Source of the DNA: Gibbula magus
Taxonomy: Eukaryota; Mollusca; Gastropoda; Trochida; Trochidae
DNA: 64,000 bases
Assembly: GCA_936450465.1 (NCBI GenBank)
Contig: OW388294.1
Location: forward strand, 66,515,575 to 66,579,574
Direction: 5' to 3'
The first letter of the stretch is position 1, and each line of letters opens with the position of its first letter. This document shows, one piece after another, positions 11,980 through 60,870 of the stretch. The notes below the pieces were generated by a model. The model did not search any database. It had not been told where the DNA came from and saw only the letters and a list, made by a program, of their open reading frames with translations. A program made the translations under genes and the position numbers.

Positions 11980-13400
11980 GATGTAATTTTAACGTATCAA
12001 TTGATGGATTAACGTATCAATTTATGGACTGAGAAATCAGTTGAATTAATGCATTTGCGAATCAGGTTGACAAATCAGTTTTTGGATTGACGAATCAGAA
12101 TCATCCTGATGAATCAGTAGACGGTTGACGAATCAGTAGACGGTTGATGAATCAGTAGACGGTTGACGATTCAGTAGTTGGTTGATGAATCAGTAGACGG
12201 TTGATGATTCAGTAGACGGCTGATGATTCAGGTTGATGATTCAGTAGAATGAATCAGTAGACGGTTGACGAATCAGTAGACGGTTAGACGGTTGACGAAT
12301 CAGTAGACGGTTGACGAATCAGTAGGCGGTTGATGAATCAGTAGGCGGTTGATGAATCAGGAGGCGGTTGATGATTCAGTAGACGGTTGTGGATTCAGTA
12401 GACGGTTGATGAACCAGTAGACCGTTGATGATTCAGTAGACGGTTGATGATTCAGGTTGATGATTCAGTAGACGGTTGATGAATCAGTAGACGGTTGACG
12501 AATCAGTAGACGGTTAGACGGTTGATGAATCAGTAGATGGTTGACGAATCAGTAGGCGGTTGACGAATCAGTAGACGGTTGATGAATCAGTAGACGGGTG
12601 ATGAATCAGTAGACGGTTGATGAATCAGTAGACGGTTGATGAATCAGTAGACGGTTGATGAATCAGTTGATGAATCAGCAGACGGTTGATGATTCAGTAG
12701 ACGGTTGATGAATCAGTAGACGGTTGATGATTCAGGTTGATGATTCAGTAGACAGTTGATGAATCAGTAGACGGTTGACGAATCAGTAGACGGTTAGACG
12801 ATTGATGAATCAGTAGACGGTTGACGAATCAGTAGGTGAATGACGAATCAGCAGGTGGATTGATGAATCAGTAGACGGTTGATGAATCAGTAGACGGTTG
12901 AAGAATCAGTAGGTGGTTGATGAATCAGTAGATTGTTGATGAATCAGTAGACGGTTGATGAATCAGTAGACGGTTGATGAATCAGTAGATGGTTGCTGAA
13001 TCAGTAGACGGGTGATGAATCAGTAGACAGTTGACGAATCAGTAGGCGGTTGATGAATCAGTAGACGGTTAACGAATCAGTAGATGGTTGATGAATCAGT
13101 AGGCGGTTGATGAATCAGTAGACGGTTGATGAATCAGTAGACGGTTGATGAATCAGTAGATGGTTGATGAATCAGTCAGTTGTTAACGAATCAGTTGGTT
13201 GACTGACGTATCAGTTGCTGGATTGACAAATCCTTGGTGGATTAACGATTAAGTTTTTGGATCGACGAATCAGTTGGTTGTTATGTAACAAATCAATTGG
13301 TTGATTGACGAATCAGTCGGTTGTTATGTAACGAATCAGTTGGTGGATTGATGAATCGGTTTGTGGATTGACGAATCAGGTGGCTAATGACGAATTCGTT
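11980..13400. repeat. 19-bp minisatellite, about 70 units
   Basis: Unit GTTGATGAATCAGTAGACG with common variants (GACGAATCA, GATGATTCA, GTAGGCG). The centre is homogeneous and both ends are more diverged (for example TTGGTTGTTATGTAACGAATCA near 13.3 kb). Larger segments are themselves repeated: the block with CGGTTAGACGG occurs near 12.28, 12.51 and 12.79 kb. It ends about 150 bp from the stop of the minus-strand PAN-Sushi-GON gene, so it could lie in that gene's 3' UTR. Confidence 0.95.
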
Positions 13401-16630: not shown

Positions 16631-16638
16631 TCTATTAT

Positions 16639-17500
16639 CAAACATTACCAAGCTGGATGTATCAAGCATTACAAAACTGGTTTTATCAAGCATTACCAAG
16701 CTGGTTTTATCAAGCATTACCAAGCTGGTTTTATCAAGCATTACCAAGCTGGTTTTATAAAGCATTACCAAGCTGGTTTTATCAAGCATTATCAAGCTGG
16801 ATTTATCAAGCATTACCAAGCTGGTTTTATCAAGCATCATCAAGCTGGATTTATCAAGCATTACCAAGCTGGTTTTATCAAGCATTATCAAGCTGGATTT
16901 ATCAAGCATTACCAAGCTGGTTTTATCAAGCATTACCAAGCTGGTTTTATCAAACATTACCAAGCCGGTTTTATCAAGCATTACCAAGCTGGTTTTATCA
17001 AGCATTATCAAGCTGGATTTATCAACATTACCAAGCTGGTTTTATCAAGCATTACCAAGCTGGTTTTATCAAGCATTACCAAGCTGGTTTTATAAAGCAT
17101 TACCAAGCTGGTTTTATCAAGCATTATCAAGCTGGTTTTATCAAACATTATCAAGCGCGTTTTATCAAGCATTACCAAGCTGGTTTTATCAAGCATTATC
17201 AAGCTGGTTTTATCAAGCATTTCCATGATTAATTTTTATCGAGCATTACCATTATTGTTTTTATTAAGCATTACCATGATTATTTTCATCGAGAATTACC
17301 ATTATTATTTATATTAAGAATTACTATGGTGGTCGTATCAAGCTATTCCATGTTGGATGTTTCAATTATTATCATGTTGGTTAAATCAATAAGACCGTTT
17401 TATACATCATTACCATTATAATGTTATCAATTATTACCAAAATAGTATCATCAAGCATACCAATCTATTCAAACATTATCATTAATGGTTCACCAAATAT
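16639..17500. repeat. 24-bp minisatellite with a degenerate right flank
   Basis: Core 16639-17220 has about 24 units of CAAGCATTACCAAGCTGGTT + TTAT, with A/T and C/T variants. One 23-bp unit near 17025 shifts the register. From 17220 to about 17500 the same period continues but units diverge step by step. Because 24 is a multiple of 3, several frames are open on both strands (one reads YQALPSWF repeated); these are not genes. Confidence 0.95.
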
Positions 17501-17878: not shown

Positions 17879-18216
17879 TCTGAACCACATAGTAGCAGCT
17901 AGTTTCCAGTTCTGTCATTGTAGTGACTGAGAGTTCAAATCCAGGTGACCAATACTTAAATTTTTTAGAAAGCTATACAAACATTTCCCCGATAGATTTA
18001 TCTAAGCATTACCCAGAATAATACATCAAGATAAAAAATTAATCCATTCTGAACCACATAGTAGCAGCTAGTTTCCAGTTCTGTCATTGTAGTGACTGAG
18101 AGTTCAAATCCAGGTGACCAATACTTAAATTTTTTAGAAAGCTATACAAACATTTTCCCGATAGATTTATCAAGCACTACCCAGAATAATACATCAAGAT
18201 TAAAATTAATTCATTT
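17879..18216. repeat. 169-bp tandem duplication with tRNA-like block
   Basis: 17879-18047 and 18048-18216 are direct copies, more than 95% identical. Each holds GAGTTCAAATCC, close to the B box of tRNA genes, preceded by a small hairpin GTCA-TTGTAG-TGAC like an anticodon arm. This may be a dimer of a tRNA-derived SINE fragment. Confidence 0.75.
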
Positions 18217-20471: not shown

Positions 20472-20974
20472 ATATGAATTTTCAAATCAGTATCTATTCA
20501 TAACTTAAAAGGCCAGTTTTGGCTTGTTTTGCGACGTCCTACAGAAATGACGCGTCAACAAATTTAATCAAAGAAGGTTATTTATGTCGAGGATATCTTT
20601 AATTAATTAAATTACTACTTTTTCAATGTTTTAATGATAAATTTGCTGAATTTTAGAAATACCAATATTATATTATCTGTGTCAATGCTATTGAAAACGA
20701 TTTTTGAAATAAGAAAAATGAATGTATAACATTGTCACGTGACTGAAAAATGTAAAAAAAACAAAACTGTATTATAGGTCATATGGCCTAAATTACTGAA
20801 TAAAGCTTCTGTCTGTCTGTAAAATGAGTAAAGATACACAAATTGTAATAAATCTTTAACAAAATGCATACACAAAAGTAAAGCTATAACTGCCAATACA
20901 ATAACCTGTTCCATTTTATGTGCGTGAGTCTGTGTCAATTTTATAATGCATTTGTGTTATTTGTGTCTTTGGCC

Positions 20975-21337
20975 TTAAAGGGGCAGTAGCACGTTTTTTC
21001 GCTGAAATAAGTCGATGAAATGTATTTGAACATAAATGTCACCAATAGTAAAACACCATTCTCTCTCCAGAAATTCAAATTGAAAATGAGTGTACATGGT
21101 TCGGTAAAGTCATGGGGATTGTTTTGGTAATGCGAAATGATTAAATTGTGTTCACAATAAAATGGCCGCCATGCAATTTTTGCTTTATACGCAACATCGT
21201 TATTATCACTAGGGATAACTGGTGTGTGTAATAACATGTTTTACCCTCTAAAGTTAATATAAATGACATAAACTATCATTATAAATGGGAAATTTGAAAA
21301 AATAAAATTTGCAAAAAACGTGCTACTGCCCCTTTAA
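20975..21337. mobile_element. TTAA MITE family 1, copy 1 (363 bp, complete)
   Basis: Begins TTAAAGGGGCAGTAGCACG and ends CGTGCTACTGCCCCTTTAA, so the inverted termini are perfect over about 18 bp inside TTAA. The core holds the family-wide block AATGGCCGCCATGCAA. No transposase; mobilised by a piggyBac/Kolobok-like enzyme if at all. The peptide-like similarity between copies is only shared DNA ancestry. Confidence 0.85.
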
Positions 21338-21929
21338 TACTGAATAGAATGTCTGTCTGACAAATATGAAGTCTTCAAAGGGGGCTATCATACACTCATG
21401 ATTGTATGTATGCATAAGCAAGTATATGATAAAGGTCATTATTGCGACATGCGAACACGTACTATCTACATGTAAGGCAGAATCATGAGAGCAGATATCA
21501 ACCAAACACACTCATAATTCATAACTGAGGCACATGAGTAAATGATGTTGCCATGGTACATCTTAAACAAACGTTTCGGATTTATCTTATTATCCAGATT
21601 ACTATAGTGACTAATGAATATGTATCTTAGGTTGGCATCTGTATTAGCATTATGACATTTCGAACATGTTTAATGACTTCTAAACATTAGTAAGATTAGT
21701 AAGATCAATGTCAGCCGGTTTAAGAACAGATCAGAAGATATGTGAGTTATATTTCTCAAAGTTCACATATGTAGACATTTCAGTTCAATAGTTAATAAAA
21801 TGCATTTAAATGCTACATTATATTTATACATATCCATAAACACTCACATAATTGATATGCTTGATGCATAGATATTTGCTCAAAATACCTTCTTTAATGA
21901 CAGTTTTAATAAATTGGTATAAGAAATGT

Positions 21930-22205: not shown

Positions 22206-22215
22206 ATGAGTACAG
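22206..22215 (+). CDS. Gene A exon 1 coding part (Met-Ser-Thr, phase 1)
   Basis: ATG AGT ACA G followed by donor GTGAGA. The first codon of exon 2 is completed as GAA (Glu). The same three residues and phase start gene B at 41993, which supports this tiny coding exon. Confidence 0.7.
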
Positions 22216-25655: not shown

Positions 25656-28600
25656 GGGGTTGTAGGGTCGAAACCCCTTTGTCCCCCACGTTCTTCCCCC
25701 ATCCCCTGGATCCGCCATTATGTTATTCCGGTTGACCTAAAAGACCTGCACCTATTGAGATATTTTGTATTACTTCGATCAGAAGGTATGTTGATAGAAA
25801 TGGGCTAAGGTAACACAATATTTGGAGCTCCTCGTTCGTGGCGCACACCAACAAGGAGTTAAATAAAGTAAACACGAATATATACATGTCCTTGAAAAGG
25901 CATACCCTCTAGCGTGACTTTTCAGTAATTCGACTATATATGAACAAGCGTCATTGAGTAGGCCGATTCTGTGCCTTTATAGATAAGGGTTTTGTTGTAT
26001 GCTTATATAGCCATGCATTGAAGAATATGATAAAAGGGTTCGTTCAGAATCGAGGAACGCCAGAAAGTTGAATAACGAAATGCAACGATTTAACGTTCTG
26101 ATGTCCAAAAAAAAATTCAGCCTCTGTCTCAGCGACTTGTCGTTCTTTACCTATTTAATATTATGGATAGAATTAAAGCTGCACTGCACTTGAATACTAT
26201 TTTAAAATTGATGTTATCTAATTATTGCCAAAGAAATAGTGGAAATTGAATACAAAATAATATTTAAACTAAATAGTGATAAATAATTAGAATTAAAATA
26301 TATCGATGCTGACAAACTCAACCTAAGACAGTAAATTGCCGAATGTGCCAACACCTGAGATAAGTTTATTAAATGATGGTTTAAAAAATCATTTTAGCTC
26401 TTCAGGCCTGAAAGCCCAGATTGGCTTATGACATGGACCGTGACCCAATGTCCGTCCGGCGTCTGTTGTCCGTACAGTTGTCACATTTCCTACTTCTCCT
26501 CAAGAACATGAAAGCTGAAATGCAGTGGGGGGGTACCTAGCACCTAGGGGATCAAAGTTTATGCATTTGTCCCTGAACTCATCATCACATCATCATATCA
26601 ATCATTTAAACCAGAACCAGGCAGCAAGCCAGGACTCTTAACAATATCAAAACATGTTTTTCGCTCATCTATACTATGAACATATCAAAACAATCATGTA
26701 TCTGATTCCAGAAACAGACAAGCGAGGACCCCCACCCGAGCAGTTCCCCCAGTACAACCAGCAGTACCCCCAGCAACCCCCTCCACCCGGGGGCTACAAC
26801 CACCCGCAGGGGTATGGATACTCTGCACAGAGCACCACTGTGGTGAGACTAATATACCTTTCACTTTATTAAAGGGCCCATGTGACCATGGCACACAATG
26901 TGAAGTGATATTCTCCTTTATGCGATTTTATGCCAATTTTTCTCATCAATAATGTTGTTTCAATTATGTTGTAACAACATTGATGCAGAAAACGGGAATA
27001 TACCGTGGATTTTCGTTTCAACAAAAATATCCATCTGCTACTTGCGTTATAACAATCTGTGAAAGGTGATATCGCGACGCGGCAGAACCGGAGACGTCAG
27101 TTTCTATATAGTTTTCTCTGTGTGATTGTTCTATGTTTATTAAAGGGGCAGTAGTACGTTTTTTCGCTCAAATAAGTAGATAAAATGTATTTGAAAAATA
27201 ATGTTACCAACAGTAAAACACTATTCTCTCTTCAAAATCAAGTTAAAAATGAGTGTACATGGTTCCGTAAAGCCATGGCAATCGTTTTTTGTCATTCGAA
27301 ATAATAAAATGTGTTCACAATAAAATGGCCGCCATGCAATGTTTGCTTTATACACAACACCAGTATTACCACTACGGATAATTGGTTTGTGTAATAAGAT
27401 GTTGTACCCTCTAAAGTAAATATAAATGACATAAACCATTATTCTAAATGGGAAATTTAAAAAAATAAAATTTGCACAAAATGTGCTACTGCCCCTTTAA
27501 GATTTTAACTATGAAGTTGTGACTCCATGGCCTCGTTCAAAGTAAGGTTAAGATTCAAAGATTTGAAATCATTTCATTTCTATGATTCTAACACAATTAC
27601 GTACCTTTGTATCTTTGCAAAAAGTTACCTTAACACAAAGCTTAAGGTTAACCTAAGTACTTTGATTAAGGTAACCTTAGTGTTTGTGCAACGGGACCCT
27701 TGGTCTATAATTACGTCATTACAGTCGTAAGCCACTGATAATGTGTGGTTGCTACCATTAATTTAGTTTCGAAAATCTAGGACAATGCCATATTCTTGAC
27801 TTAGAACACATGCTGTTGCCAATGATAACAATTACATTGTTAAAATCTATAATTATCATTATCATCCACTTCCTGTTTTGTAGACTGCCCAGCCCATGTA
27901 TGGAGGCCCCATGGTGGTCCAACAGCCTCGTCCATCTGATTATCTCGTCCTGTCCATCGTGTCCTGTTTCTTCTGCTGGCCAATGGCCATCTGTGCTCTC
28001 GTGTCCTCCTTGAATGTAAGTATCAGAAGTATACAGATATGTGCTCTCGTGTCCTCCTTGCACGTAAGTATCAGAAGTATACAGATATGTGCTCTCATGT
28101 CCTCCTTGAACGTAAGTATCAGAAGTATACAGATCTGTGCTCTCGTGTCCTCCTTGAACGTAAGTATCAGAAATATACAGATCTGTGCTCTCGTGTCCTC
28201 CTTGAATGTAAGTATCAGAAGTATACAGATCTGTGCTCTATCGTCCTCCTTGAATGTAAGTATTAGAAATATACAGATCTGTGCTCTCATGTCCTCCTTG
28301 AACGTAAGTATCAGAAGTATACAGATCTGTGCTCTCATGTCCTCCTTGAACGTAAGTATCAGAAGTATACAGATCTGTGCTCTCGTGTCCTCCTTGAACG
28401 TAAGTATCAGAAATATACATATCTGTGCTCTCGTGTCCTCCTTGAACGTAAGTATCAGAAGTATACATATCTGTGCTCTCGTGTCCTCCTTGAACGTAAG
28501 TATCAGAAGTATACAGATCTGTGCTCTCGTGTCCTCCTTGAACGTAAGTATTAGAAATATACAGATCTGTGCTCTCATGTCCTCCTTGAACGTAAGTATC

Positions 28601-30558
28601 AGAAGTATACAGATCTGTGCTCTCATGTCCTCCTTGAACGTAAGTATCAAAAGTATACAGATCTGTGCTCTCGTGTCCTCCTTGAACGTAAGTATCAGAA
28701 GTATACAGATATGTGCTCTCGTGTCCTCCCTGAACGTAAGTATCAGAAGTATACATATCTGTGCTCTCGTATCCTCCTTGAACGTAAGTATCAGAAATAT
28801 ACAGATCTGTGCTCTCGTGTCCTCCTTGAACGTAAGTATCAGAAGTATACAGATCTGTGTTCTCATGTCCTCCTTGAATGAAAGTATAAGAAGTATACAG
28901 ATCTGTGCTCTCATGTCCTCCTTGAACGTAAGTATCAGAAATATACAGATCTGTGCTCTCGTGTCCTCCTTGAACGTAAGTATCAGAAGTATACAGATCT
29001 GTGCTCTCATGTCCTCCTTGAACGTAAGTATCAGAAGTATACAGATCTGTGCTCTCATGTCCTCCTTGAACGTAAGTATCAAAAGTATACAGATATGTGC
29101 TCTCGTGTCCTCCTTGAACGTAAGTATCAGAAGTATACATATCTGTGCTCTCATGTCCTCCTTGAACGTAAGTATCAGAAATATACAGATCTGTGCTCTC
29201 ATGTCCTCCTTGAACGTAAGTATCAGAAATATACAGATCTGTGCTCTCGTGTCCTCCTTGAACGTAAGTATCAGAAGTATACAGATCTGTGCTCTCATGT
29301 CCTCCTTGAACGTAAGTATCAAAAGTATACAGATCTGTGCTCTCGTGTCCTCCTTGAACGTAAGTATCAGAAGTATACAGATATGTGCTCTCGTGTCCTC
29401 CCTGAACGTAAGTATCAGAAGTATACATATCTGTGCTCTCATGTCCTCCTTGAACGTAAGTATCAGAAATATACAGATCTGTGCTCTCGTGTCCTCCTTG
29501 AATGAAAGTATAAGAAGTATACAGATCTGTGCTCTCATGTCCTCCTTGAACGTAAGTATCAGAAATATACAGATCTGTGCTCTCGTGTCCTCCTTGAACG
29601 TAAGTATCAGAAGTATACAGATCTGTGCTCTCATGTCCTCCTTGAACGTAAGTATCAGAAATATACAGATCTGTGCTCTCGTGTCCTCCTTGAACGTAAG
29701 TATCAGACGTATACAGATCTGTGCTCTCATGTCCTCCTTGAACGTAAGTATCAAAAGTATACAGATCTGTGCTCTCGTGTCCTCCTTGAACGTAAGTATC
29801 AGAAGTATACAGATATGTGCTCTCGTGTCCTCCCTGAACGTAAGTATCAGAAGTATACATATCTGTGCTCTCGTATCCTCCTTGAACGTAAGTATCAGAA
29901 GTATACAGATCTGTGCTCTCATGTCCTCCCTGAACGTAAGTATCAGAAGTATACATATCTGTGCTCTCGTATCCTCCTTGAACGTAATTATCAGACGTGT
30001 ACAGATCTGTGCTCTCGTATCCTCCTTGAACGTAAGTATCAGGCGTATACAGATCTGTGCTCTCGTGTCCTCCTTGAACGTAAGTATCAGAAATATACTG
30101 AGATCTATAGACTGATCATGTTGGGTGGACGCCAAAGCAGGGGTAATACTTTCAAGGGGAGATCATCCAACTTTGTCTTACACAACTGGATTTCAAGTGA
30201 TGGAAGTATGTTGTAAATTCTGGCTTTTTTGAAACATGATTATTTTCCATGACAGATTATTAAATTGTACATCGAGATACATAAACCATGATGAAGCAGA
30301 ATGCAAACATCTGGAGTCAGTTTGATAAGAAGAAGTACATATGTTATCTTACTATCAACAATTCCATTGCAGTCCCAGAAGTCTGCCGATGCCGGAGACT
30401 ACCCATCGGCAATGTCTCAAGGTCGTACTGCCCGCAACGTCGCCATTGCTGCCATCGTTATTGGTATCGTGATCGTCGTTGTCGCTGTTGTGGCTGTTGT
30501 CGTCACACAGGTCATATTTGCAGCATCGGTTTCCTCCGCGTATAGCAGATACGGGTAG
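22206..30558 (+). CDS. Gene A: CD225/dispanin family membrane protein, 4 exons, 152 aa
   Basis: Exons: 22206-22215, 26712-26842, 27884-28015, 30373-30558 (stop TAG 30556-30558); every junction obeys GT-AG and keeps frame (phases 1, 0, 0). The protein has a short Pro/Gln/Tyr/Gly-rich cytosolic N terminus (residues 4-64). A CD225 domain follows: membrane segment 1 is about 65-91 (SDYLVLSIVSCFFCWPMAIC), the linker carries GDYPSAMSQGRTARN, and membrane segment 2 is about 109-135 (NVAIAAIVIGIVIVVVAVV). This arrangement, with Cys next to segment 1 and the GDY/AR linker, is the dispanin family (IFITM, PRRT and SynDIG-like proteins in vertebrates), which act on membrane fusion and trafficking. Which subfamily this belongs to cannot be told. 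Intron 3 holds the 44-unit donor array. A second gene with the same 5' plan starts at 41993. Confidence 0.85.
23190..24050. mobile_element. GGATCCG-anchored dispersed repeat, copy 1
   Basis: Starts with a C-rich run ending in CTCTGGATCCGTCACTAC. About 23290-24050 aligns in order with 25695-26390 (shared blocks GGTTGACCTA, ACAAGGA, AATAAAGTA, ACACGAA, TTTTCAG.AATTC, TTCTGTGC.TTTAT, ATATAGC). It lies in intron 1 of gene A. Class unknown. Confidence 0.6.
24060..25580. other. Gene A intron 1, unremarkable part
   Basis: AT-rich intron sequence with no feature I can support. Confidence 0.4.
25584..25654. repeat. (GT)n followed by a run of 31 G
   Basis: About 18 GT dinucleotides (25585-25622), then 31 uninterrupted G (25624-25654), then TGGGG. 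The tract sits in intron 1 of gene A at the edge of the second GGATCCG repeat. It could form Z-DNA and G-quadruplex structures. Confidence 0.9.
25660..26390. mobile_element. GGATCCG-anchored dispersed repeat, copy 2
   Basis: Begins with a C-rich segment and CCCCTGGATCCGCC, then follows the same order of blocks as copy 1 at 23190-24050, at roughly 60-70% identity by eye. Further GGATCCG anchors beside C- or G-rich runs occur at about 61170 and 62080. Confidence 0.6.
26712..26842 (+). CDS. Gene A exon 2 (proline/glutamine-rich N-terminal region)
   Basis: Acceptor ATTCCAG before 26712, donor GTGAGA at 26843. Encodes ETDKRGPPPEQFPQYNQQYP and continues with PPPPGGYNHPQGYGYSAQS, a PY/GY-rich cytosolic tail typical of proline-rich dispanins. 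Confidence 0.85.
27140..27500. mobile_element. TTAA MITE family 1, copy 2 (361 bp, complete)
   Basis: TTAAAGGGGCAGTAGTACG at the left and TGTGCTACTGCCCCTTTAA at the right, same orientation as copy 1. It sits in intron 2 of gene A, 298 bp after exon 2. Confidence 0.85.
27884..28015 (+). CDS. Gene A exon 3 (CD225 membrane segment 1)
   Basis: Acceptor TTTTGTAG before 27884, donor GTAAGT at 28016. Encodes TAQPMYGGPMVVQQPRPSDY then the hydrophobic segment ending CALVSSLN. The last 27 nt are the first part of the 48-bp repeat unit, so the array begins inside this exon. Reading past the first donor stays open in the same frame to a TAG at 30113-30115. Confidence 0.85.
27989..30100 (+). repeat. 48-bp minisatellite derived from the exon 3/intron 3 junction, 44 units
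   Basis: Exactly 44 units in strict 48-bp register (2112 bp, no net indel). Unit 1 is the true exon 3 end (27 nt) plus donor GTAAGT and 15 intron bases ending CAG. Of 44 units, 41 keep GTAAGT; two read GAAAGT (units at 28853 and 29477) and one GTAATT (29957). Variable positions are few (G/A at 13 and 42, C/A at 3, G/T at 48). Groups of units recur as higher-order blocks, for example those starting at 28613, 29285 and 29717. In the exon 3 frame each unit reads ICALVSSLNVSIRSIQ. Because 48 is a multiple of 3, other frames, including two on the minus strand, are also open; these are not genes. Confidence 0.95.
30373..30558 (+). CDS. Gene A exon 4 (linker and membrane segment 2, stop)
   Basis: Acceptor CCATTGCAG before 30373, stop TAG 30556-30558. 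Encodes SQKSADAGDYPSAMSQGRTA, the second membrane helix and a short tail ending SSAYSRYG. An acceptor 6 nt further in (TCCCAG) would also keep frame and drop two residues. Confidence 0.85.
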   Translation, partial: SQKSADAGDYPSAMSQGRTARNVAIAAIVIGIVIVVVAVVAVVVTQVIFAASVSSAYSRYG

Positions 30559-34789: not shown

Positions 34790-35168
34790 AGAGGGAGGGT
34801 TATGGACGATGTTTTTATAAAGTGGGGAGGATACTTATAGCGGCCAATATATATTTATAAATCATTGATATGTATCAAGCAAATATTTATGTGTCCTTTT
34901 TATAAGTTGGAAATGATGCCAACACGATAACAACACTTCAAATTACCATGTAATTTTCAAAACAAATTTGAAAGAGAACATGTTCATAAAGAAGTATACT
35001 TTTATAACGTTCTGTTAACGTTGTCAAAATAACGACGGTATTTTTTTACAAATGAAAACTATAACTTGTTTTCTGTTCGATATATTTGATATTTCCTGCT
35101 TATATACATAACTCATGACAATTCAAATTAGGATGCACACTTTCAATATTATTATATAAACCACGTAT
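34790..35168. other. Gene-free AT-rich stretch
   Basis: Only a short GAGAGAGACAGAGAGGGAGG run at its start; nothing else seen. Confidence 0.35.
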
Positions 35169-35501
35169 TTAAAGGGGCAGTAGCACCTTTTTAAAAAAAA
35201 ATGCTTTTTCAACTCCCCCAAAATGATAGTTTATGTCATTTATATTTACTTAAGAGGCTTAAACATCTTATTACACAAACCAATTGTCCGTAGTGATTAT
35301 AACAGTGTTGCGTATAAAGCAAAAATTGCATGGCGGCCATGTTATTGTGAACACATTTTATTATTTCGAGTGACAAAGACGATTCTCATGGCTTTACGGA
35401 ATCATTTACACTTATTTTAAAACTTGATTTTCAAAAGAGAGAAGGGTGTTTTACTGTTGGTGACATTATTTTTCAAATTCATTTCATCGACTTATTTCAG
35501 T
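35169..35501. mobile_element. TTAA MITE family 1, copy 3 (right end lost)
   Basis: Left end TTAAAGGGGCAGTAGCACC; inverted orientation relative to copies 1-2 (contains TTGCATGGCGGCCATG). It stops at TTATTTCAG, where complete copies continue into the CCCCTTTAA terminus, so the last about 30 bp are missing. Confidence 0.8.
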
Positions 35502-45000: not shown

Positions 45001-48000
45001 CCTCCATGCAGATCGTATTTCAGAAGCAAGACAAAACAATACAATTCTGGTAGATTTTCAGATTTTAAAAAAAGTATTTCTAGCATTAAATCTCAAAAGC
45101 AAAATTTCAGTATCAAATCCAGTCTTGTTTCAATTGTAACCGTCTTTTAAATTCAAATACTCAAGATCTATTACGTTTAAAACAACTCTATTCATGCAGA
45201 ACTATACGAATATTTACGTAGCATATAGATACATGTACCAATGATGTAATTATTGTATTGATTTATCAATAAATATTATTTGTTCATGGAGGTAGCCATT
45301 TATTGAAATAATCCTTTACATATGCCAAACAAAGCTTTTCTAGAAAATTATAATAATACACATCAACTTTTGAATTTCCCGCAAAGCGACATCAAGTTGA
45401 CTCAAAGAACGCCTCTCGAAATTTGAGACACGAGGCAACAGGTGTCCTTCAATCCGGAACTAGTACAATGACGTCATTCATGTGACTGCTGCTCAAATCA
45501 AGATACTTATGTCACAGCGACCTAACAACGTGTTTAGTGTCAATAATTGAAAGAAAGAAAAGAAACGAAATAATCATATCATTTGTACATGAATGTTGAA
45601 CATTATAGCTAAATATGTGTACAATACTCCAAATATATTTATTTACTTGACGTGATTATGTTTGTTCTCTGAAATTAGAACCGTTGCAGTGTATTTTACA
45701 ATAATACATATTTAAATGCAAATTTGTCAAGGTAGAATTGATAATACATGTAAGGAGTTACATATAATGTATAAATCTTTAGTTAGATTTAGTTTGATCA
45801 TGATATATATTTCTCACGACATTACATGTACCTGGGGGTTACCGCAACCTAACGTTATGACAACAGCAAAACTAGTGTAGGTTATGCATATTCAAGTTAT
45901 TGATTCAAAGGATATAAGCGAAGCTCCCGACTGCACAGTTGTGGTTTGTGCTTATTTGTACACCAGACACACATTCATTGTAAATGAGTTACCACCTGTG
46001 ACACAGACTGAAATTTAGTCTCTTAAAGGAGAATAATGAAACAAAATTGTTAAAATAAAACTTGAAATAAAACATCTAATAGCTGAGATTTTTGTCAGGC
46101 CATATGAATAGAAATTGACTTCTGAGATCTGTAATCTTTAGAGATTTGCTTAAAACGGTTAGACTTACTTTTATTTTAGTTTAATATGTAGATTAAACGA
46201 CGAGGGAAGTTACTTTAACATATCTAAAAAATATGAATTAGCTTCTCTGGGTCTTTATAGACGTGCTTAAATAGACTTTACTCTAGTATGATGTATAGAT
46301 TCCATTGACACGTTACACTGAAAATAAGGAACTTACTTTTGAACTATACAAACAACAACAAAGCAGTTTCTGACGTATGTAGGCCTTGGTTTATATGATG
46401 TTTACTTCAGTTCTAGTTTGATATGTAGATTTCAATGACATGTTATTCTTAAATAAGTTACTTTTGAAATATGAAAATAGTAACTAGCTGCTGAAACGTT
46501 TTTCAAGCCTTAGTTTACATGTGTAGATTTGTTTAAATAAGTTGTAATTAGACTTTCTTCAAGACTCTAATTCAATATTTTATTTTTCTGTATGACATGA
46601 AGCACGTACACCAAGGAAGTGTGTAAGGTTTAATGGACCTTGAATGTTTGTTCTTTGGTAAAGTGCATGAATTCGTTTGAGTGAAAATGATACTTGACTG
46701 TGAAAATCTGATAACTGTACAAACATCATTTTAAAACATAACACTTAGTTGTGATTCATCGTGGCTTGCACAATATGCATTATAAAAACATTCTCTTATT
46801 TTCATAGACCCTATGGCTTAGTCCTAAATTTTGATGAAATATTTTATCGAAATTCATCACTTTGTCCTCGGGGTTAATTCTGCATATTGTACTTTTTCGG
46901 ATGCCTAATGGAGATTTAAGATAAAGAAGAGATATAGTTTAATCCGAGAAAAGGAGAATTGAAATTCAGAAAAGAATAAAAATACTGGAATATAACAACA
47001 TACAATCAGGAGCTTGTCGATTACAGGCTTACAGCACATTAACAATAACGTCATATAATATCAAAACTGACTGAAATAGTTTCTATAATTCATTTTTAAA
47101 ATGATAGAACACATTATGTCAAACGTAAATCCAGCGATTTATTGAAAACAATTTATATATTTAACACTATTTTGAACTTAGAGTCTGAATGTTGTTATTA
47201 AAGTCATTTAGGTACAATTCATTGTAATTGCATTAACCAAATATATGTACGTTGTATAATTCAATCACTCAATGAATCATATTTTTTTTTTATGTCAGAC
47301 CATATGGTACATGGTACAATTGTATTTGAATAAGAAACATTTATATTTTATAATCATTTTTATATATAATCAAGGCTTCGTTTATCAAAATGACATACGA
47401 TCTCTATGGCAACCTCGAAATATTTAATAATTGATATGCATCCAGCTGTATTGGCCATTTAATCAACCGAGAACAATTTTCGCCACATGCTAAGAATTGT
47501 TTATAATATGATCATCAAAGGTAGTCACGTGGTAACAAAACAGGAAATGCCCATTTCCCAAAGCGAAATTATATTTGACCTTTACTGATTATACCGCAGC
47601 GTATCTGACCTCAATACGTCAGTACTTTCCAACAATAATTTAGTCTGTGTTTCCATGTATGCAAAATGTTGTTTAACACTATTTTCTCGTACATGCACTT
47701 TCATTGTTAAGATAGACTATTAATATTATTCATTGAATTAAATGTGTGCGTATTCGAAGGTATATAGTTGATGATCGAGATTGCACACAGCCATGTAGCT
47801 GTTTTATATCTGATTGGTAACAAAGGTGTTGCTGAGATTCGTAACATTTGCATTGAATTGCGAGTAGGCTAAGTAAAAAACATAATAACAAGACTTTTGC
47901 ACAGAATTTCGAAAAATAACCCAACAGAATTGCAAGCCCTTTGCACTATTGCGACAAAAATAGTAAAAAACATAATTGCAAGAAATTTGCACTGAATTGC

Positions 48001-51000
48001 GAAAAACTAAAAAACAGAATTACAAGCCATTTGCAATGAATTGCGAAAAAGTAAAAACAGAATAAGAAGACAATTGCACTGGTTTAGGAAAAAGTAAAAA
48101 CATAATTGAAAGACATTTGCAGAGAATTGCGAAAAAGTAAAACAAATCTGAATAAACAAGCCTTTTGCACTGAATCGAAGTTTATATATACTGTTTTGGA
48201 CAGCAGTTGTATCGCTATTGTCAGTAGCGGACAGCAGGAACGCTGTGGAACTGTTGATGGTAATGGGCTAGATTTGATTACTCGCATTTATAAATTACAT
48301 TATAAATAATCAAAACGTTGTCGTTCCATTACATCTATACCACCTATTTGACTACACGTAATTAAGGAGGGTGATATTAGGGAATTGGTTGGAAATGTGA
48401 TGCCTTCTCCGGCATGTAATACATATAATGCAAAGCACCATGCCTTTAAAGTTGTGATATCTGTCCCGAGGGCGGTTAGTGGAATGTGAAACAGTGAAGA
48501 GAATAAATGTAGACTGTCGTTCATTCTGTTATATCATATAGAAACCGAACCAAGTCTATCACATTTTAGCCTATCAGGCATTATATCATTCAACAAAGAT
48601 ATCTCGGGCCGGGGCTATTTTGTATTTTCTTTTTCGTTATTCGGACATTTTCTTCTGACATTTGCATTCCTCAGACTAGACGGTTGGTAATATATAATTC
48701 ACTGAGAACGTTTTGTGTTGGGTATAAGCTCTGTAAAGACAATGATTTTCTTGACCATGTGTATCTCATCACACTCTAGGGATGTTCTTAGAAGTCATAC
48801 TGCAGCCAGACAAGTGAATGTGATACGATTATTCGTAATCTATATTCCTTAGAGCATCTCCTAAGTGTTTCCTATTCCATGGCCATTACACTAAAAAGTA
48901 AAGTTGGGGGAACTTTATGTACGATCATTGTTATCATGCAGACAAAGACGTTTTTTAGAACATGACCTAACAGTACATCTATCAAAACAAATTTTAAAAT
49001 GAATTAATTTTAGATTTAAAAGGAAATTTAATTATGAGATAATATTTTAGTATTCTGAGACTTGCTACGCTTCGATAGACTTACTTTGTTGTTAATCAAA
49101 CAGAATGGCTAGGGTCCAGCTGCATAAAGCTGATTTAGGCCAATGTGGTCATATCTCTGAGATACCATTAATCTAAGGAGTTTGTGAAAATTCGTCCAGA
49201 ACTACAAACTAAAAAATAAAGGATTTTAACAAAAAAGGATCAAATTAACAATAGCTACATTTTCTTATTTGAAGACTCCAAACAAAGCATTTTGAAAGAA
49301 TTTATGAAATTTAACAATTTGTTCGTTGATGATCAGTCAGTTGCAAATTTAGTGTTAATTTGTGTATATTCTATCAATATATATGTTTTATTATTGAAAA
49401 GTTGTAAAATTAGTAAAGATACAGCGTTTTCTCAATCCACGTACTCTACGAAATCAAAATGGCGGACACTATTCTCGGAATCCTCTCTTTAATGATCGAT
49501 GGGGATATGCATTTCATGAAGATGCTATGAAAGGGTCCCAGCGGCACTGACTGACAGTGTTCAGATCAATAATACACGCCTACCCATTGCCACTCGATTG
49601 TTACAGATGCACAGCGAATGGTACACAATCTGTCACTTATGTGCATATTTATATTATGGGCAGCTGGGTAATAGGTCATTACGTACAATGTACCGTTACA
49701 AACCTACAGCTCTACAGTGAATAACTGCAAAAGGTTTTTCATGTTTATTCAATCAAATTATGATAAAAACGATTTTCCTTGACATTTTTACTACTTTCAA
49801 TTAATGATCACATTTCAAAATCAGGATATGCACAAGGTAATCTCATCTCATTTTAATGAGACTGAGGGTAATGTTTCTGTTTCTCAATAGTGTTGTCCTG
49901 GTGATTGGCTGACAGGGTTGTATAGAATTCACTGACGAAACACGTTTTACATATGAATTGGGTACAGAATCACAAATTGTATTGCAATACGATACGATAT
50001 GTGAGAAGATATACTACGATATTTTCTCAAATATCACATCGTATTGATATATATTTTATGTTGCAATATGCAACGTTACTTTTTATAAGCACAAGTGATA
50101 GTACATGTCACTGAGGTTCACCGAGTGCATGGTTTGTTCAAGAATGGGAGTTATGGTTACACTCAGTAATTGTTTTGTATTGGATCAAAGTTCCACTAAG
50201 CCAGCTTGATTGATTTAACTAAAGTACACTTTATAATGTATTTATATAGGTAGTAACATAAGACCAAACTTAAGTTTTTTCTATATTCTATATTATACAC
50301 TGTCGGTCAAAAGAAACGCCTACATGGTCTTCCTTAAAATGAAAGAGAACATACTTTCTGAAATATAATCAATGGTGGTCTCAACGTTATGCTGAGAGCA
50401 AATTGATATGAAAGTCCATTGAAATCGTGGAAAAAACTGTGATTCGAGTCAATAACATTCATGAAAAACACGCCCAAAGAAGACCGCTATTTTCGGTTGA
50501 TTCACTTGCGTACCGTAACCACGTACAGATGTAGCGTCATCACCACTATAATGCGAATGCGTGCCTGTAATGTTGCTCGTGGTTGTATTAAAAGCTGTTT
50601 CAAATGTTGTTCTGATCAAGCACTGATCGAAAACTGAACAATTCATTTGTCTCATTTCAACAATCGCCGTTCTTTTGTGACATGACAACTTCTGAAATTT
50701 AAAATATTATGCAGAAACTTCATAACGTATAATATTGCTAAAATGCTCATTATAATTTGTAAGAAATCTCATAAGATATCTGGTAGGCGTTTCTTTTGGC
50801 CGACAGTGTATGAAATCGTTTGCAGGCTTTATTGCAATAAATCACTACCACGGTGTTACGGACATTCTCCCCGCATAAATCTTAAATACTGAAGTTAACA
50901 TTGGCAAAATTGGCACTAAGCCCAAAATCGACTCGACTCTTGCTCTGCATCTGTCTTTGTGCATGAGCACGTAGACATACGTATGATATATACTAACGTT

Positions 51001-53748
51001 ATAAAACAATTAGGCAATGTAGATATGTTCCGAGGTAATTTATCTGTAATATAAGTCTCCACTGAGCACTAATTGGACATATTTGCCTCGTATTATATGC
51101 AAGCATATCCTGTTATATTTCGTGATGGAATTATTCACCCGCCTACCAGAATGACCTCAATGTATGGGCTGCCATATTAATCTTAGGACAATTATGCTCA
51201 GCAAGTACTTTAGCAATTCCCACTGGCTGTGCAATAACAGGCAAATGTCATGTGGAATATTTGCATTCCTTTTGTGTCCGAATATTGGACTAAAGCTGAT
51301 CGAAATATATGAAATATTTGTTTGTCAATTCTATTGTTGAATAAATACAGACGTAGATGATGCAGTCTGATTAAAATCGACCTTGTTCCGAGGAATAAAA
51401 TTTGCAAAATAATATATCTACCGGGATACGAACAGGTTCTGTAGATTCCTCGCCACAAGGTCTGAGAACATCCCGTATAGGCGTGTGTTCCGAACCAGTT
51501 TAGCGCAGCCAAAGCCCAGTCAAATAGCTGACCAACCACATCATAGTTTTTAAACGGTCGCTGTTTTGAAAGCATTTGGAACAGACAAAAGGATAGCTGT
51601 TTGGAGTTATCTGCCCCTAACTTCTCGCACCGAAAGCATTTGTTGGGCATCTTTTGATTGGCTACCTGAATTGCGCTCGAACACGCTAGTCTACGGACTG
51701 TTTCCAGACGGTTTGGCGTGGAAACCTCCGAACGATATGAGTTCGTATCCCGGTAGATGCACTATTTTGCACATTTTTTCCGCGGAATACCGTCGGTTTT
51801 AATCAGACTGTAGATGATGTATACGCATTATACCCAAGAGAGCTTAAATGTGGATAAAATGAATGCATTACATATATTTTTCAAAACAACTATTTTATGA
51901 CCTATTTTGATTTCAATTTAATTCGTTTGAATTATATTTTTACACGTCGCATATGCCAGTGTCAATATTCTTTAAAATGACTATTTTATTATATATTTTA
52001 TTTTCGATTTAATTCTAGTGAATACCATTTTAATTTATACCAATGATAATTTGTGTCATTTATATTTACTTTAAAAACATATTATTACACAAAACAACTA
52101 CCCGTAGAGGTAATAACGGTGTTGTTTATAAAGCAAAAATTGCATGTTGGCTATTTTATTGTGAACACATGTTATTATTTCGAATGACAAAAACGATTCC
52201 CATGGCTTTATGGAACCATGTTAACTCATTTTTAACTTGATTTTCCCAAGAGGGAAGGGTGTTTTACTATTGGTGACATTATTTTTCAAATCCATTTCAT
52301 TGACTAATTTCAGAGAAAAAACATGCTACTGCCCCTTTAACATATGTGGGACTGCAATCTCAATGCACTCTTATTAAAATCAGATCTATATTAAGGTCTA
52401 ACAAACAAACTTCTGCCGTAACCATCAAGGTCACGGTCATTGCTCTGCAGGAGTAAGTCAATTTTTTGTCTTTGGACTGTCAATTTTCAAGCCTCGTCGC
52501 TGATTGGCTGGGGTGAAAGGTCACAGTAATGTGTTCGAAAAGTGACCGTGGTCAGATTTTCATATACTACATTCTATCTATATAACTACAAGTGACATGT
52601 ACAATCTGGTTTATAAGGAGATTTATAGAAACGTGACTTGAAACAAGCATGAATGATGCGCAGGGACAAAGCAACAAAGGAAGTTGTCAACTGCATGGTG
52701 TTTTGTAACATGCAGCCACAATATATTCATAGCACACACGGTAATGGATATGGGAGTTGTTCAGAATTTCGAAGTTATTTGCACTTCATCTGGTTTAAAA
52801 CACATTTGATTTACTAGAAGAATTCGAAATTATTAGCTATCATCCTTATACTTCTACACATTTCTTTGCGTATTCATATTCTTTAGAAAAATCACGATAG
52901 AGGTTCCCGATCGTCTATGTTGTGTATACATGACGAATTTAAATAAGTTTGAGTATGTATACGTCACGTGATACGTGCACATGTTCCAAACTATATCATC
53001 CGTAGCCATATCTCTTTTCATCGAGTTACAATATCGAATCATGCAAAGAGAACAGTGCCCATTGACAATAATATTAAAGGAGCAGTAGCACTTTTTTCAA
53101 ATTTTATTTATATTTATTCAAATTTCCCATTTATAATGATATTTTATGTCATTTTTATTTACTTTAGATGGTAAAAATCTTATTACGCAAACCAATTATC
53201 TGTAGTTCTAATAACGGTGTTGCGTACCGTAGAGGTAATAACGGTGTTGTTTATAAAGCAAAAATTGCATGGCGGCCATTTTATTGCGAACATATTTTAT
53301 TATTTCGAATGACAAATACGATTCCCATGGCTTGACGGAACCATGTTAGCTCATTTTTTTTAGCTCATTTTTTAACTTGATTCTCTGAAGAGAGAAGGGT
53401 GTTTTACTAATGGTGACATTTTTTTCAAATACGTTTCATTGTCTTATTTCAGAGAAAAACGTGCTACTGCCCCTTTAAACTCCCACTCTTATATGATATA
53501 TTAAAGCTGTGAAGGCAGGACATAATTACACATTGGATACAAGATTGAACACTGAATACTGTGGTAATTTAATTTGTTTATTTTCAGACGAAAAATCCGG
53601 ATATCCCCAAAACCCTCCCCCAGCCTACGGGCAACCCCAACCGGGCTACGGACAACCCCAACCGGGCTACGGGCAACCCCAACCGGGCTATGGACAACCA
53701 CAACCGGGCTATGGACAACCTCAACCGGGCTACGGGCAAAATGTAGTC
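41993..53748 (+). CDS. Gene B: paralogue of gene A (dispanin-like), 5' two exons, partial
   Basis: Exon 1 coding 41993-42002 (ATG AGC ACA G, donor GTAAGT) and exon 2 53588-53748 (acceptor TTTTCAG, donor GTAAGT) join in frame to 57 residues: [18 protein letters not shown], then QPQPGYG five times, then QNVV. Three-residue first exon, phase-1 intron, Pro/Gln/Gly/Tyr-rich exon 2 and phase-0 end all match gene A. Intron 1 is 11.6 kb and full of repeats. I find no CD225 exon between 53749 and the window end, so the membrane part must lie beyond 64000 or is absent. The family call rests on the shared exon plan only. Confidence 0.65.
42257..42827. repeat. Old tandem duplication, about 300-bp unit, in gene B intron 1
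   Basis: Copies about 42257-42569 and 42570-42827 share GTAATAGAATGCTAG, GTTGTGTCT, TGTCACTTAAT, TAATAGCACG and ATATGTAATG in order, about 302 bp apart at the left end and less at the right. Confidence 0.65.
43330..43645. repeat. About 90-100-bp degenerate tandem repeat, 3 units
   Basis: Units end in CAACCATTTRGTG(T/A)ACAAG (43501, 43600) with a weaker one near 43412. One frame stays open through two units, but the translated copies differ widely, so a gene is not supported. Confidence 0.55.
44004..44380. repeat. Two-copy tandem repeat, about 187-bp unit
   Basis: Copies start near 44004 and 44191. Shared blocks: GAAAAT.TCG, TATGAACTTTCTA, ATCGTCATGT and GAATTAA in the same order. Confidence 0.55.
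44395..46100. other. Gene B intron 1, no feature
   Basis: AT-rich; nothing supportable on either strand. Confidence 0.35.
46100..46560. repeat. Degenerate tandem repeat, about 125-bp unit, 3-4 copies
   Basis: Recurring blocks: TCTAGTTTGATATGTAGATT, GACA(C/T)GTTA, TTACTTTTGAA, and TTAGACTT or AGACTT. Copies lie near 46170, 46285 and 46410, with a weaker one near 46510. Confidence 0.55.
46565..47850. other. Gene B intron 1, no feature
   Basis: AT-rich, nothing recognised. Confidence 0.35.
47855..48175. repeat. 43-49-bp degenerate minisatellite, 7 units
   Basis: Unit GAATTGCGAAAAAGTAAAAA followed by CAGAATTGCAAG and (C/A)ATTTGCACT; seven units of slightly different length, all variants of this consensus. 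Confidence 0.8.
48180..50290. other. Gene B intron 1, no feature
   Basis: No gene or clear repeat seen. Confidence 0.35.
50298..50808. mobile_element. Tc1/mariner-type MITE (511 bp)
   Basis: Left end CACTGTCGGTCAAAAGAAAC and right end GTTTCTTTTGGCCGACAGTG are inverted (one mismatch over about 26 bp), each flanked by TA (50296-50297 and 50809-50810). A 79-codon minus-strand frame inside (50449-50688) is not recognisable as a transposase, so this is non-autonomous. Confidence 0.85.
51354..51819. mobile_element. Foldback DNA transposon with 9-bp target duplication
   Basis: Element 51363-51810 (448 bp) between identical TAGATGATG copies (51354-51362 and 51811-51819). Inverted ends of about 70 bp start CAGTCTGATTAAAATCGACC on the left; the right ends GGTTTTAATCAGACTG. 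A 9-bp duplication with long inverted ends fits Mutator-like elements best. No transposase. Relatives at 9416-9610 and 11516-11870. Confidence 0.85.
52035..52340. mobile_element. TTAA MITE family 1, copy 4 (left end lost)
   Basis: Right end CATGCTACTGCCCCTTTAA complete; the left terminus is missing. Same orientation as copies 3 and 5. Confidence 0.8.
53074..53478. mobile_element. TTAA MITE family 1, copy 5 (405 bp, with internal duplication)
   Basis: Ends TTAAAGGAGCAGTAGCAC and GTGCTACTGCCCCTTTAA. It is about 40 bp longer than copies 1-2 because TAATAACGGTGTTG occurs twice (about 53209 and 53236). The second occurrence, with its context CCGTAGAGG, matches copy 4. It lies 109 bp before gene B exon 2. 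Confidence 0.85.
53588..53748 (+). CDS. Gene B exon 2 (QPQPGYG repeats)
   Basis: Acceptor TTTTCAG before 53588, donor GTAAGT at 53749. Five tandem 21-bp units each encode QPQPGYG; all base differences among the units are synonymous (GGA/GGG, TAC/TAT, CCC/CCA/CCT). Confidence 0.75.
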
Positions 53749-53759
53749 GTAAGTATCTA

Positions 53760-55080
53760 TTATATATATCCTTTATTCTAAATTGCAGGAAAACGATGAT
53801 TTCCGGTTACGTCTATTATGATGAGTTGAAGTGTTACTGATACATAGACTTGAGTCGACAAACTAGAAGTGCCCCCTAACGTCTGCCAACTCCTAATGTG
53901 CATCAGTGAACATATAATGTATTTAATGTCTCCTGTGGACTTTGAATGTTGCTTTTAAAGAACACTGACTTTGAATCATCGTTTGGACAACAACTTCCCC
54001 CGTAAGTCATTACTCGCGTCTCAACATCACTTGCGAATTCAGGCATTGCTGCATCTCATGACCTTTTCTGTGCTCGGGTACAGAACGCTGCTACAACAAC
54101 ACAGAAAAAACATATCATAAATTGCAGAAATAGTAAGATACAGAGTAGGTGAACAAACTTCCAGAAGCCGTTGTAAGTGTCGCAGCTTGAGATTGGCTGT
54201 ATTATTTGAAAATATAATATAAACCTATCTATTGTTTAGTTATGAATGCAAGAAGGAACTTAGGTACAATAATTCATCTTTATTGACAATACACCATTCT
54301 TATTCCCACGATAATTACTTAAATAAGATTGCTCCTAAAACATAAACACCAGACAGGCATTAACTGATGTTAACATAAACCAAACGTGATTTGTCATCGT
54401 GTAGACATACTACAAGGTACATGTAGGGAACAAATCCAATTTAACACGTAACAATTCTTAAATATCTTTCACGCAGAATATTCTAAGAAAATGAATACAA
54501 CAAGAAAACGTTTCATATATTTATCCTGAGTAAATAAAGTTCAACACACAAATTGTTTACAAAGACGTTCAGTGAGTCGTTGAAGTTACATATGTCAAAA
54601 TGGGGTTAAATTATCGAAAAATACTCACTTTTGCCAACAAGTTCCGTTTGAATGATAGTCGACTAAGTATAGTAACGAAAAAAAGTTGAAGGTACTGATT
54701 TGTGATCGAAAACCGGACACTTGTCATCCCTTGATAATTACATAAACCGAAAAATATACATGTATACTAAAAAGGCGTTACACGAGAAAATGTAATATCG
54801 TTTACAGTTTTTATCAAATGAGAAGACAATCAAACATAAAAATGTTGAACAGTATGTTCCTTATTTGATTCTCCTTAATACGCTCTGAGGAACAGGGCAG
54901 TTAGGCCTAACAAAATGTTTCTGGTCCTTACTCGTTCATGCTGACAAAAATAATGCGATGACGCGATTTTTTACAAAATTTTTTTTTTTTGGATGAAGAG
55001 TTAAACAAACAAAATTTATACAATTATTTATATAAATAAAGCACAAATCCTCTTAAATATGTGTTACTATTCCAAATAGT
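53760..55080. other. Gene B intron 2, no feature
   Basis: AT-rich; no CD225-like exon found. Confidence 0.35.
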
Positions 55081-60229: not shown

Positions 60230-60870
60230 ATTGTCATTTGAAGTATAGGTTGAATACTTCACGACGGAACCAAGCTTCAACTGAACAAGGCTTCAATAAA
60301 ACTGCCGTGGTTGATATTGTAAATATTGAATCTGTCATAGTCAGTTAACAAGATACTTCAAGATGGCTTGCAGATTTATCAACATCAATTAAACTAATTA
60401 TCAAACATTAATTATTCAATAAAACTTGCCTCTGTTTTCAATAGTTGATATCGTAAGAAAATTTGTCATAGTAATTAAACAAGATATGTCAAGATGTCTC
60501 CCAGATTTATCAAAATAAGGCTTCAATAGAAATTGCCCGTTTTCCGGGCTCGATATTATACATAAATCTATCATAGTCTTTTAAGAATCTACTTCAAGAT
60601 GTCTTTCAGATTTATCAAAGTAATTCTTCAGTAAAACTTGCCCCTGTTCTATATTGTTCATATTGTAAGAGAATCTGTCATTATCATTTAACAAGATGCT
60701 TCAAGATGGTTTCCAGATCAAAATAATTCTTCGATAAAACCTGTTCCTGTTTACCTTGGTTGATTTTATAAATAAATCTGTCATAGTCTTTTAGCAAGCT
60801 ACTTCAAGCAGATGCCCGGACAGATGAAAATGAGGTTTCAATATAAACAAACCCTTTCTATTGATTTCCC
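60230..60870. repeat. Degenerate tandem repeat, about 105-130-bp unit, 5 copies
   Basis: Each unit has AAGATACTTCAAGATGG, CAGATTTATCAA, TTCAATAAAACTTGCC, TTGATATTGTAA and AATCTGTCATAGTC in order. Unit starts lie near 60349, 60480, 60590 and 60690, with partial units at both ends. Confidence 0.75.

Follow-up and report, generated by a model that had tools for sequence, protein, structure and literature searches.

The exon 3 splice donor of a CD225 gene in the vetigastropod snail Gibbula magus (turban top shell) is repeated 44 times in tandem. Are these copies a working device from which the spliceosome chooses, or a passive repeat that caught a splice site? The gene, here called A, lies on chromosome 6 in the 64,000-nucleotide stretch that we analysed and refer to as the window (C6:66515575-66579574); positions without a prefix are window positions.

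Gene A and its array of splice donors

The genome searched comprised 1,470,318,725 bases in 140 contigs, and the total given for xgGibMagu1.1 in excerpts of PMC10394393 is slightly higher (1,470,404,880 in 151 scaffolds); a public poly-A RNA-seq set, ERR10123686, is named there too. According to the same excerpts the assembly was built from HiFi long reads and has a QV of 52.2 (PMC10394393), and therefore the array, whose length was taken solely from the assembly, is unlikely to be an assembly artefact. TRF gave a single 48-bp array at 27989-30098 with 44.0 copies. The unit-by-unit reading gave 44 units at 27989-30100 on the plus strand, all exactly 48 bp and with zero indels. Each unit consists of the last 27 nt of exon 3 and the first 21 nt of intron 3, and unit 1 includes the last 27 nt of exon 3 itself. 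GTAAGT is intact in 41 of the 44 units and GT is present in 42; the deviating donors are GAAAGT in units 19 and 32 and GTAATT in unit 42. The array is thus a splice-donor minisatellite, i.e., a tandem array at an exon end with a consensus donor per unit.

Gene A is read on the plus strand. Its start codon and the coding part of exon 1 (ATGAGTACAG) lie at 22206..22215, followed by the donor GTGAGA. The encoded protein starts with MST, as does a Haliotis protein; the same exon is found in a paralogue, B, and the 200 nt upstream of it are 84% alike between A and B. Exon 2 (26712..26842, donor GTGAGA at 26843) encodes a proline-rich N-terminal part. Exon 3 to donor 1 (27884..28015) encodes the first half of the CD225 domain, and exon 4 (30373..30558), preceded by TTCCATTGCAG, encodes the second half and ends with the stop codon TAG. 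Both exons exceeded the Pfam cut-off for CD225 (PF04505, 27.1 bits), with 33.1 bits for exon 3 and 27.7 bits for exon 4, and the product is a CD225 protein of 152 residues.

Donor 1 (GTAAGT, 28016..28021) yields the family-typical protein, its junction joining GGCCATCTGTGCTCTCGTGTCCTCCTTGAAT to the exon 4 start TCCCAGAAGTCTGCCGATG. Donors 2 to 44 follow at a spacing of 48 nt (28064..30085), with GTAAGT intact in 40 of 43. The 27-nt stretch is preceded by GGCC at donor 1 and by the previous unit (...GTATACAG or a variant) at donors 2 to 44. Past the array, the remainder of intron 3 occupies 30101..30372. The exon 3 frame is without stop over 27884-30115, which corresponds to 743 aa. Since exon 3 to donor 1 measures 132 nt, donor 1 and every 48-nt step after it (48 = 3 x 16) are in phase 0, and all donors of A are in phase 0 relative to exon 4. 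An earlier note on this DNA had described the 44 in-register copies, the composition of the unit, the 41 intact donors, the open frame with its phase 0 donors and the CD225 gene, and the analysis above agrees with it on all of these.

A reading of the array as a series of mini-exons (27-nt exons between TACAG and GTAAGT) was rejected. The intron between neighboring units would be just 21 nt, and the pyrimidine fraction before the AG is 0.35 versus 0.55-0.75 at the three real acceptors. The latter is a weak argument, since upstream pyrimidine fractions of 0.70, 0.60 and 0.50 were found for further AGs at unit positions 32, 38 and 41.

A twin array with a broken reading frame

The genome search found one further array locus, on the minus strand from C6:66504477 down to about 66502520, 39 kb upstream of the A array. 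It belongs to the second CD225 gene, paralogue B (C6:66514235 down to 66501866, minus strand), which is inverted and stands head to head with A. The B array has 41 units, the first of 38 bp and the remaining 40 of 48 bp each; the 38-bp unit was included in the 41 donors and excluded from the variant counts (40 units). Because of this short unit, every later donor of B is out of frame (each adds 2 mod 3), and only donor 1 is in phase. Moreover, a TGA was found in unit 2, ahead of donor 2. The donors of B are intact in 34 of 41 units, donor 2 being among the broken ones (TTAAGT), and donor intactness did not differ significantly between A and B (Fisher p 0.19).

All four coding exons of B are open and encode a protein of 154 residues. 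Between A and B, dN is 0.100 and dS 0.317 for all exons, and dN is 0.020 and dS 0.227 for exon 3. The low dN relative to dS in these open exons suggests that both proteins are maintained. Since the coding exons of B are open and conserved, B seems to need donor 1 despite its 33 further intact donors. Equal sharing among the donors would leave nearly all mRNA of B unproductive, so donor 1 is most likely dominant in B. By likeness to B, donor 1 is most likely dominant in A as well, an argument that is weaker if the 10-bp loss in B is recent. The loss may indeed be recent, with the protein conservation older than the loss of frame, and B could be non-productive in life.

A twin array with a broken frame makes the array most likely a passive repeat that caught a splice site. 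We consider it probable that the array is a passive minisatellite born across the exon 3/intron 3 donor, and that splicing would mainly use donor 1. Donor 1 would end the normal 132-nt exon and make most of the mRNA, and the remaining array would leave with the intron, the later donors acting as intron sequence with at most minor use. A may use some of its downstream donors. Leakage to donors 2 and 3 would be in frame there and tolerated, and minor use of later donors in A would be harmless since 48 is a multiple of 3, whereas in B it would give a stop codon. Against the passive reading, the array of A has stayed in register throughout (all 44 units measure 48 bp), lacks any stop and retains 41 of its 44 donors.

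Donor strength does not seem to explain the choice of donor 1. The predicted U1 pairing was -7.4 kcal/mol for donor 1 of A versus -7.7 for most others, i.e., about equal among the intact donors, and therefore strength does not select donor 1. Donor order together with exon definition would pick it. Since U1 pairing in A does not favor donor 1, the case for its proposed dominance comes from B and from exon definition in general.

Donor choice and the length of the protein

The earlier note had proposed that donor choice gives a protein of variable length. In this alternative the array is a working device in A, and a choice among about 40 equal donors would produce a ladder of CD225 proteins with steps of 16 residues (ICALVSSLNVSIRSIQ), inserted midway through the domain. 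A would use several of its donors and the ladder would vary between individuals with array length, while B would make only the short form after its frame was broken. The in-phase, mostly intact donors, the open frame and the even U1 pairing fit this proposal. A precedent comes from human IFI6, in which two downstream repeat units are used as donors according to excerpts of PMC4526556. However, B lost the frame yet keeps its array and most of its donors.

The related proteins also argue against such a ladder. A profile search scored 7,993 candidates and returned 85 proteins; 13 of the 14 animal-named hits were aligned (Bugula was left out). In all 13 aligned animal relatives the insert at the exon 3/4 junction was absent, i.e., they have the short form, and the 743-aa read-through had no protein match at E 0.001 among the 7,993 scored candidates. 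A search with the short form gave 2 hits among 159 candidates, both from Haliotis. When compared as proteins, two Haliotis 'trafficking regulator of GLUT4 1-like' proteins, which have the same CD225 domain, aligned with the exon 3 and exon 4 protein of A without gap at the junction and without insert. A genome search for intronless retrocopies that might reveal the donor used, with exon 3 joined to exon 4, gave 7 matches, none with more than 8 bases across the junction, and so bears neither for nor against the ladder. In addition, a single donor free of any array is present in two other paralogues, C and D, and a further CD225 gene (C16:23409439) has a comparable event out of frame (see below). 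Together with the lack of donor-specific constraint described in the next section, these results leave the length-variable protein unsupported, and we regard both the ladder and its dependence on array length as unlikely.

Open frame and donor conservation

A stop-free frame is unremarkable in this repeat. The consensus unit lacks stops in four of its six frames, and within the actual array of A two of the three minus-strand frames stay open for most of its length (740 and 625 aa). In the exon 3 frame, stops are possible from only 4 of 144 single changes, so that 21 random variant types would all miss them with a probability of 0.55. The open exon 3 frame is weak evidence. The second stop-free plus-strand frame of the consensus is broken in A, where its ORFs end at 28266, 28554, 28881 and 29505. 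Nine changes could create a stop in that frame versus 4 in the exon 3 frame, and its breakage is therefore only a weak pointer to constraint on the latter.

The 21 variant types of A comprise 13 nonsynonymous and 8 synonymous ones, against 107 and 33 possible. This slight lean towards synonymous types would agree with the ladder, but the numbers are small. The synonymous share is 8 of 21 in A (33 of 144 possible) and 6 of 33 in B, which also has 2 stop types.

The donor hexamer accounts for 2 of the 21 variant types in A (2.6 expected) and for 6 of the 33 in B (4.1 expected). It is not depleted of variants, its six positions being as variable as the remainder of the unit. Donor conservation was tried as a sign of selection and rejected: in A, the count of intact hexamers at positions 28-33 was reached or exceeded by 9 of the 43 hexamer windows (itself included), and in the 40 full units of B the intact-hexamer count was reached or exceeded by 12 of 43. 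The caution in the earlier note, that donor conservation alone proves no selection, was well placed.

The same counts bear on another explanation, in which the array is an intronic cluster of U1 snRNP binding sites, unused as donors, that for example shields from early polyadenylation or tunes the speed of splicing. In its favor, there are 41 (A) and 34 (B) intact U1-pairing donors within about 2 kb, and both arrays lasted while the flanking intron sequence diverged. But variants accumulate at the donor positions at the same rate as elsewhere, and A and B also resemble each other in those intronic positions of the unit that lie outside the donor. Three GTAAGT hexamers separated by gaps of 25-50 nt were found at 54,040 places in the genome, versus 44,477 for the reversed pattern (places, not arrays), which makes the latter almost as frequent. 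We consider a U1-binding function very improbable.

Likeness of the A and B arrays

Without exchange or constraint, the units of A and B are expected to differ at least as much as the two genes have diverged since their duplication. At silent sites A and B differ by 25.8% (28.5 of 110.3, pS 0.258), with a pS of 0.196 in exon 3. Six 200-nt stretches of their introns showed identities of 0.58-0.67 versus 0.54-0.58 for shuffles. The BLAST match past the array ends at 30112, and intron 3 beyond it has a faint likeness between A and B (0.62 versus 0.54 shuffled). The mean unit distance, on the other hand, is 8.2% between A and B, compared with 6.0% within A and 9.6% within B. The A and B units have zero fixed differences, and they share 11 variant types as well as 5 complete unit sequences. 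Four or fewer differences in 48 sites would have a probability of 0.002 at the rate of 0.258 and 0.029 at the exon 3 pS of 0.196. For the 15 intronic non-donor positions alone, where the numbers are too few, the probability of two or fewer differences at 0.258 is 0.22.

Exchange between the inverted copies A and B fits this likeness best. The competing explanation attributes it to purifying selection acting on the unit instead of exchange between the loci: units of A and B differ about a third as much as silent sites do, and conversion events are deduced here from unit likeness. Constraint is nevertheless less likely as the cause, since the within-array variants show none, either coding or at the donor. 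The 33 variant types of B comprise 25 nonsynonymous, 6 synonymous and 2 stop types, and a stop is in frame in 1 of 40 units. In addition, random draws of 21 and 33 out of 144 would have about 5 variant types in common; the 11 observed, together with the shared whole units, point to a common pool. We therefore think it rather unlikely that selection on the unit made the arrays alike.

Within the A array, a search for a higher-order period gave no clear lag. Three-unit blocks recurring by eye were found at units 14-16, 28-30 and 37-39.

Origin of the array and other CD225 genes

Exon 3 reads GCGATCTGTG in B and in paralogues C and D, and CCATCTGTG in A. After the last unit, A and B alike read AGATCTATAG. 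Base differences between A and B are also present in exon 4, as in GACTACCCATCGG of A versus GACTACAACTCGG of B. In B, the distance between two GATCT words equals the length of one unit, and slippage between them could account for where the unit starts and how long it is. The array would have been born by slippage between these words, 48 bp apart in exon 3 and the intron, which would have duplicated the junction. Further slippage or unequal exchange would then have amplified it prior to the inverted gene duplication into A and B, and exchange within and between the two would keep the arrays alike. A unit length divisible by three, as 48 is, would arise by chance in one case out of three.

In paralogues C (C6:66584498) and D (C6:41282384), the intron position coincides with that of intron 3 of A, with a single donor and without duplicated junction or array. 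Exons 3 and 4 of C lie just beyond the window end. An exon with a 21-bp coding repeat at 53588-53748 in the window is probably exon 2 of C.

A downstream junction copy was found in 3 of 13 CD225 exon 3-type junctions, i.e., A, B and the gene at C16:23409439; the 13 include A and B, a match at C2:89424804 with no clear donor was dropped and single-exon CD225 matches were left out. The C16 gene has a junction triplicated at C16:23409498-23409637 (L035:4499-4638), with a 47-bp unit of about 25 nt exon and 22 nt intron and GTGAGT donors in three different frames. A second locus of this 47-bp repeat was not found in our search. The donor triplication is independent of the A/B array, and junction duplication seems to have occurred at least twice in the CD225 family of the G. 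magus genome. The unit length keeps the frame in A; it does not do so in B (2 mod 3) or in the 47-bp repeat on C16, and among the three genes A is the only one in frame throughout.

About 0.6 kb beyond the C16 triplication lies an array of a 38-bp unit in 55 copies (L035:5208-7288). The CD225 family is expanded in G. magus, with 25 matches, counted by exon, on C2, C3, C5, C6, C8, C9, C14 and C16. Five CD225 matches on C9 span nearly the whole domain in one exon.

Comparison with known systems

Human 6-16 (IFI6, G1P3), which codes for a small hydrophobic protein, resembles A in that a minisatellite offers several donors in one transcript; the IFI6 units reportedly measure 12 nt in about 26 copies, compared with 48 nt, 44 copies and 27 nt of exon per unit in A. 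That this minisatellite provides several splice donors was described by Turri, Cuin and Porter 1995, as cited in excerpts of PMC4526556, PMC2572611 and PMC3618361. The two downstream repeat units serving as donors in IFI6 give three mRNA species (excerpts of PMC4526556); use of downstream donors is reported there, whereas A is known from DNA alone. G. magus also differs in having a twin array with a broken frame. IFI6 belongs to another gene family, and the origin of the G. magus array is therefore presumably independent.

The second comparison is with a study of internal tandem repeats in human genes, reportedly by De Grassi and Ciccarelli in 2009. Minisatellite expansion at the exon-intron boundaries of human segmental-duplication paralogues can alter splicing, according to excerpts of PMC2812944, with units averaging 30 bp in 4 copies, RNA evidence and novel introns that can form. 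The G. magus array is likewise a minisatellite at an exon-intron boundary in duplicated paralogues, but it has 48 bp in 44 copies, involves an existing donor and is described at the DNA level. Our literature search, which covered few subscription papers, found no report of the gene A array or of such arrays in molluscs. The kind is already known, and the G. magus array is a large new example of presumably independent origin.

Gene A offers a very large natural series of near-identical donors in one intron, and the same genome holds a matched twin, B, where the family-typical protein can come from the first donor alone. Together they form a natural test of the choice that the spliceosome makes among equal donors, and also bear on whether donor-catching repeats are tolerated owing to a precedence of the first donor. 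If the array is indeed passive, it is an ordinary by-product of a minisatellite-rich genome. Were the ladder real, a membrane protein of the CD225 family, which is best known for its antiviral IFITM members, would come in graded lengths.

Repeat background of the window

Tandem repeats are plentiful in this DNA, which favors the passive reading: TRF arrays cover 9.0% of the window, or 5.7% without the gene A array. The remaining special feature of the latter is that a large array is placed exactly across a real exon end. Further arrays in the window lie at 12107-13383 (about 19 bp), 16635-17328 (about 24 bp), 17879-18215 (about 169 bp), 47871-48175 (43-44 bp) and 60398-60808 (about 103 bp). 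Elsewhere in the genome, more GTAAGT-rich tandem arrays were seen among the places listed, at C1:160723-161523, C1:2818828-2819680 and C1:4399470-4399713. A dispersed repeat of about 370 bp was found in the window at 20974-21340, 27136-27500, 35162-35500, 52033-52340 and 53074-53478. One of its copies is inside intron 2 of gene A, and the copies are 76-91% like those around gene B.
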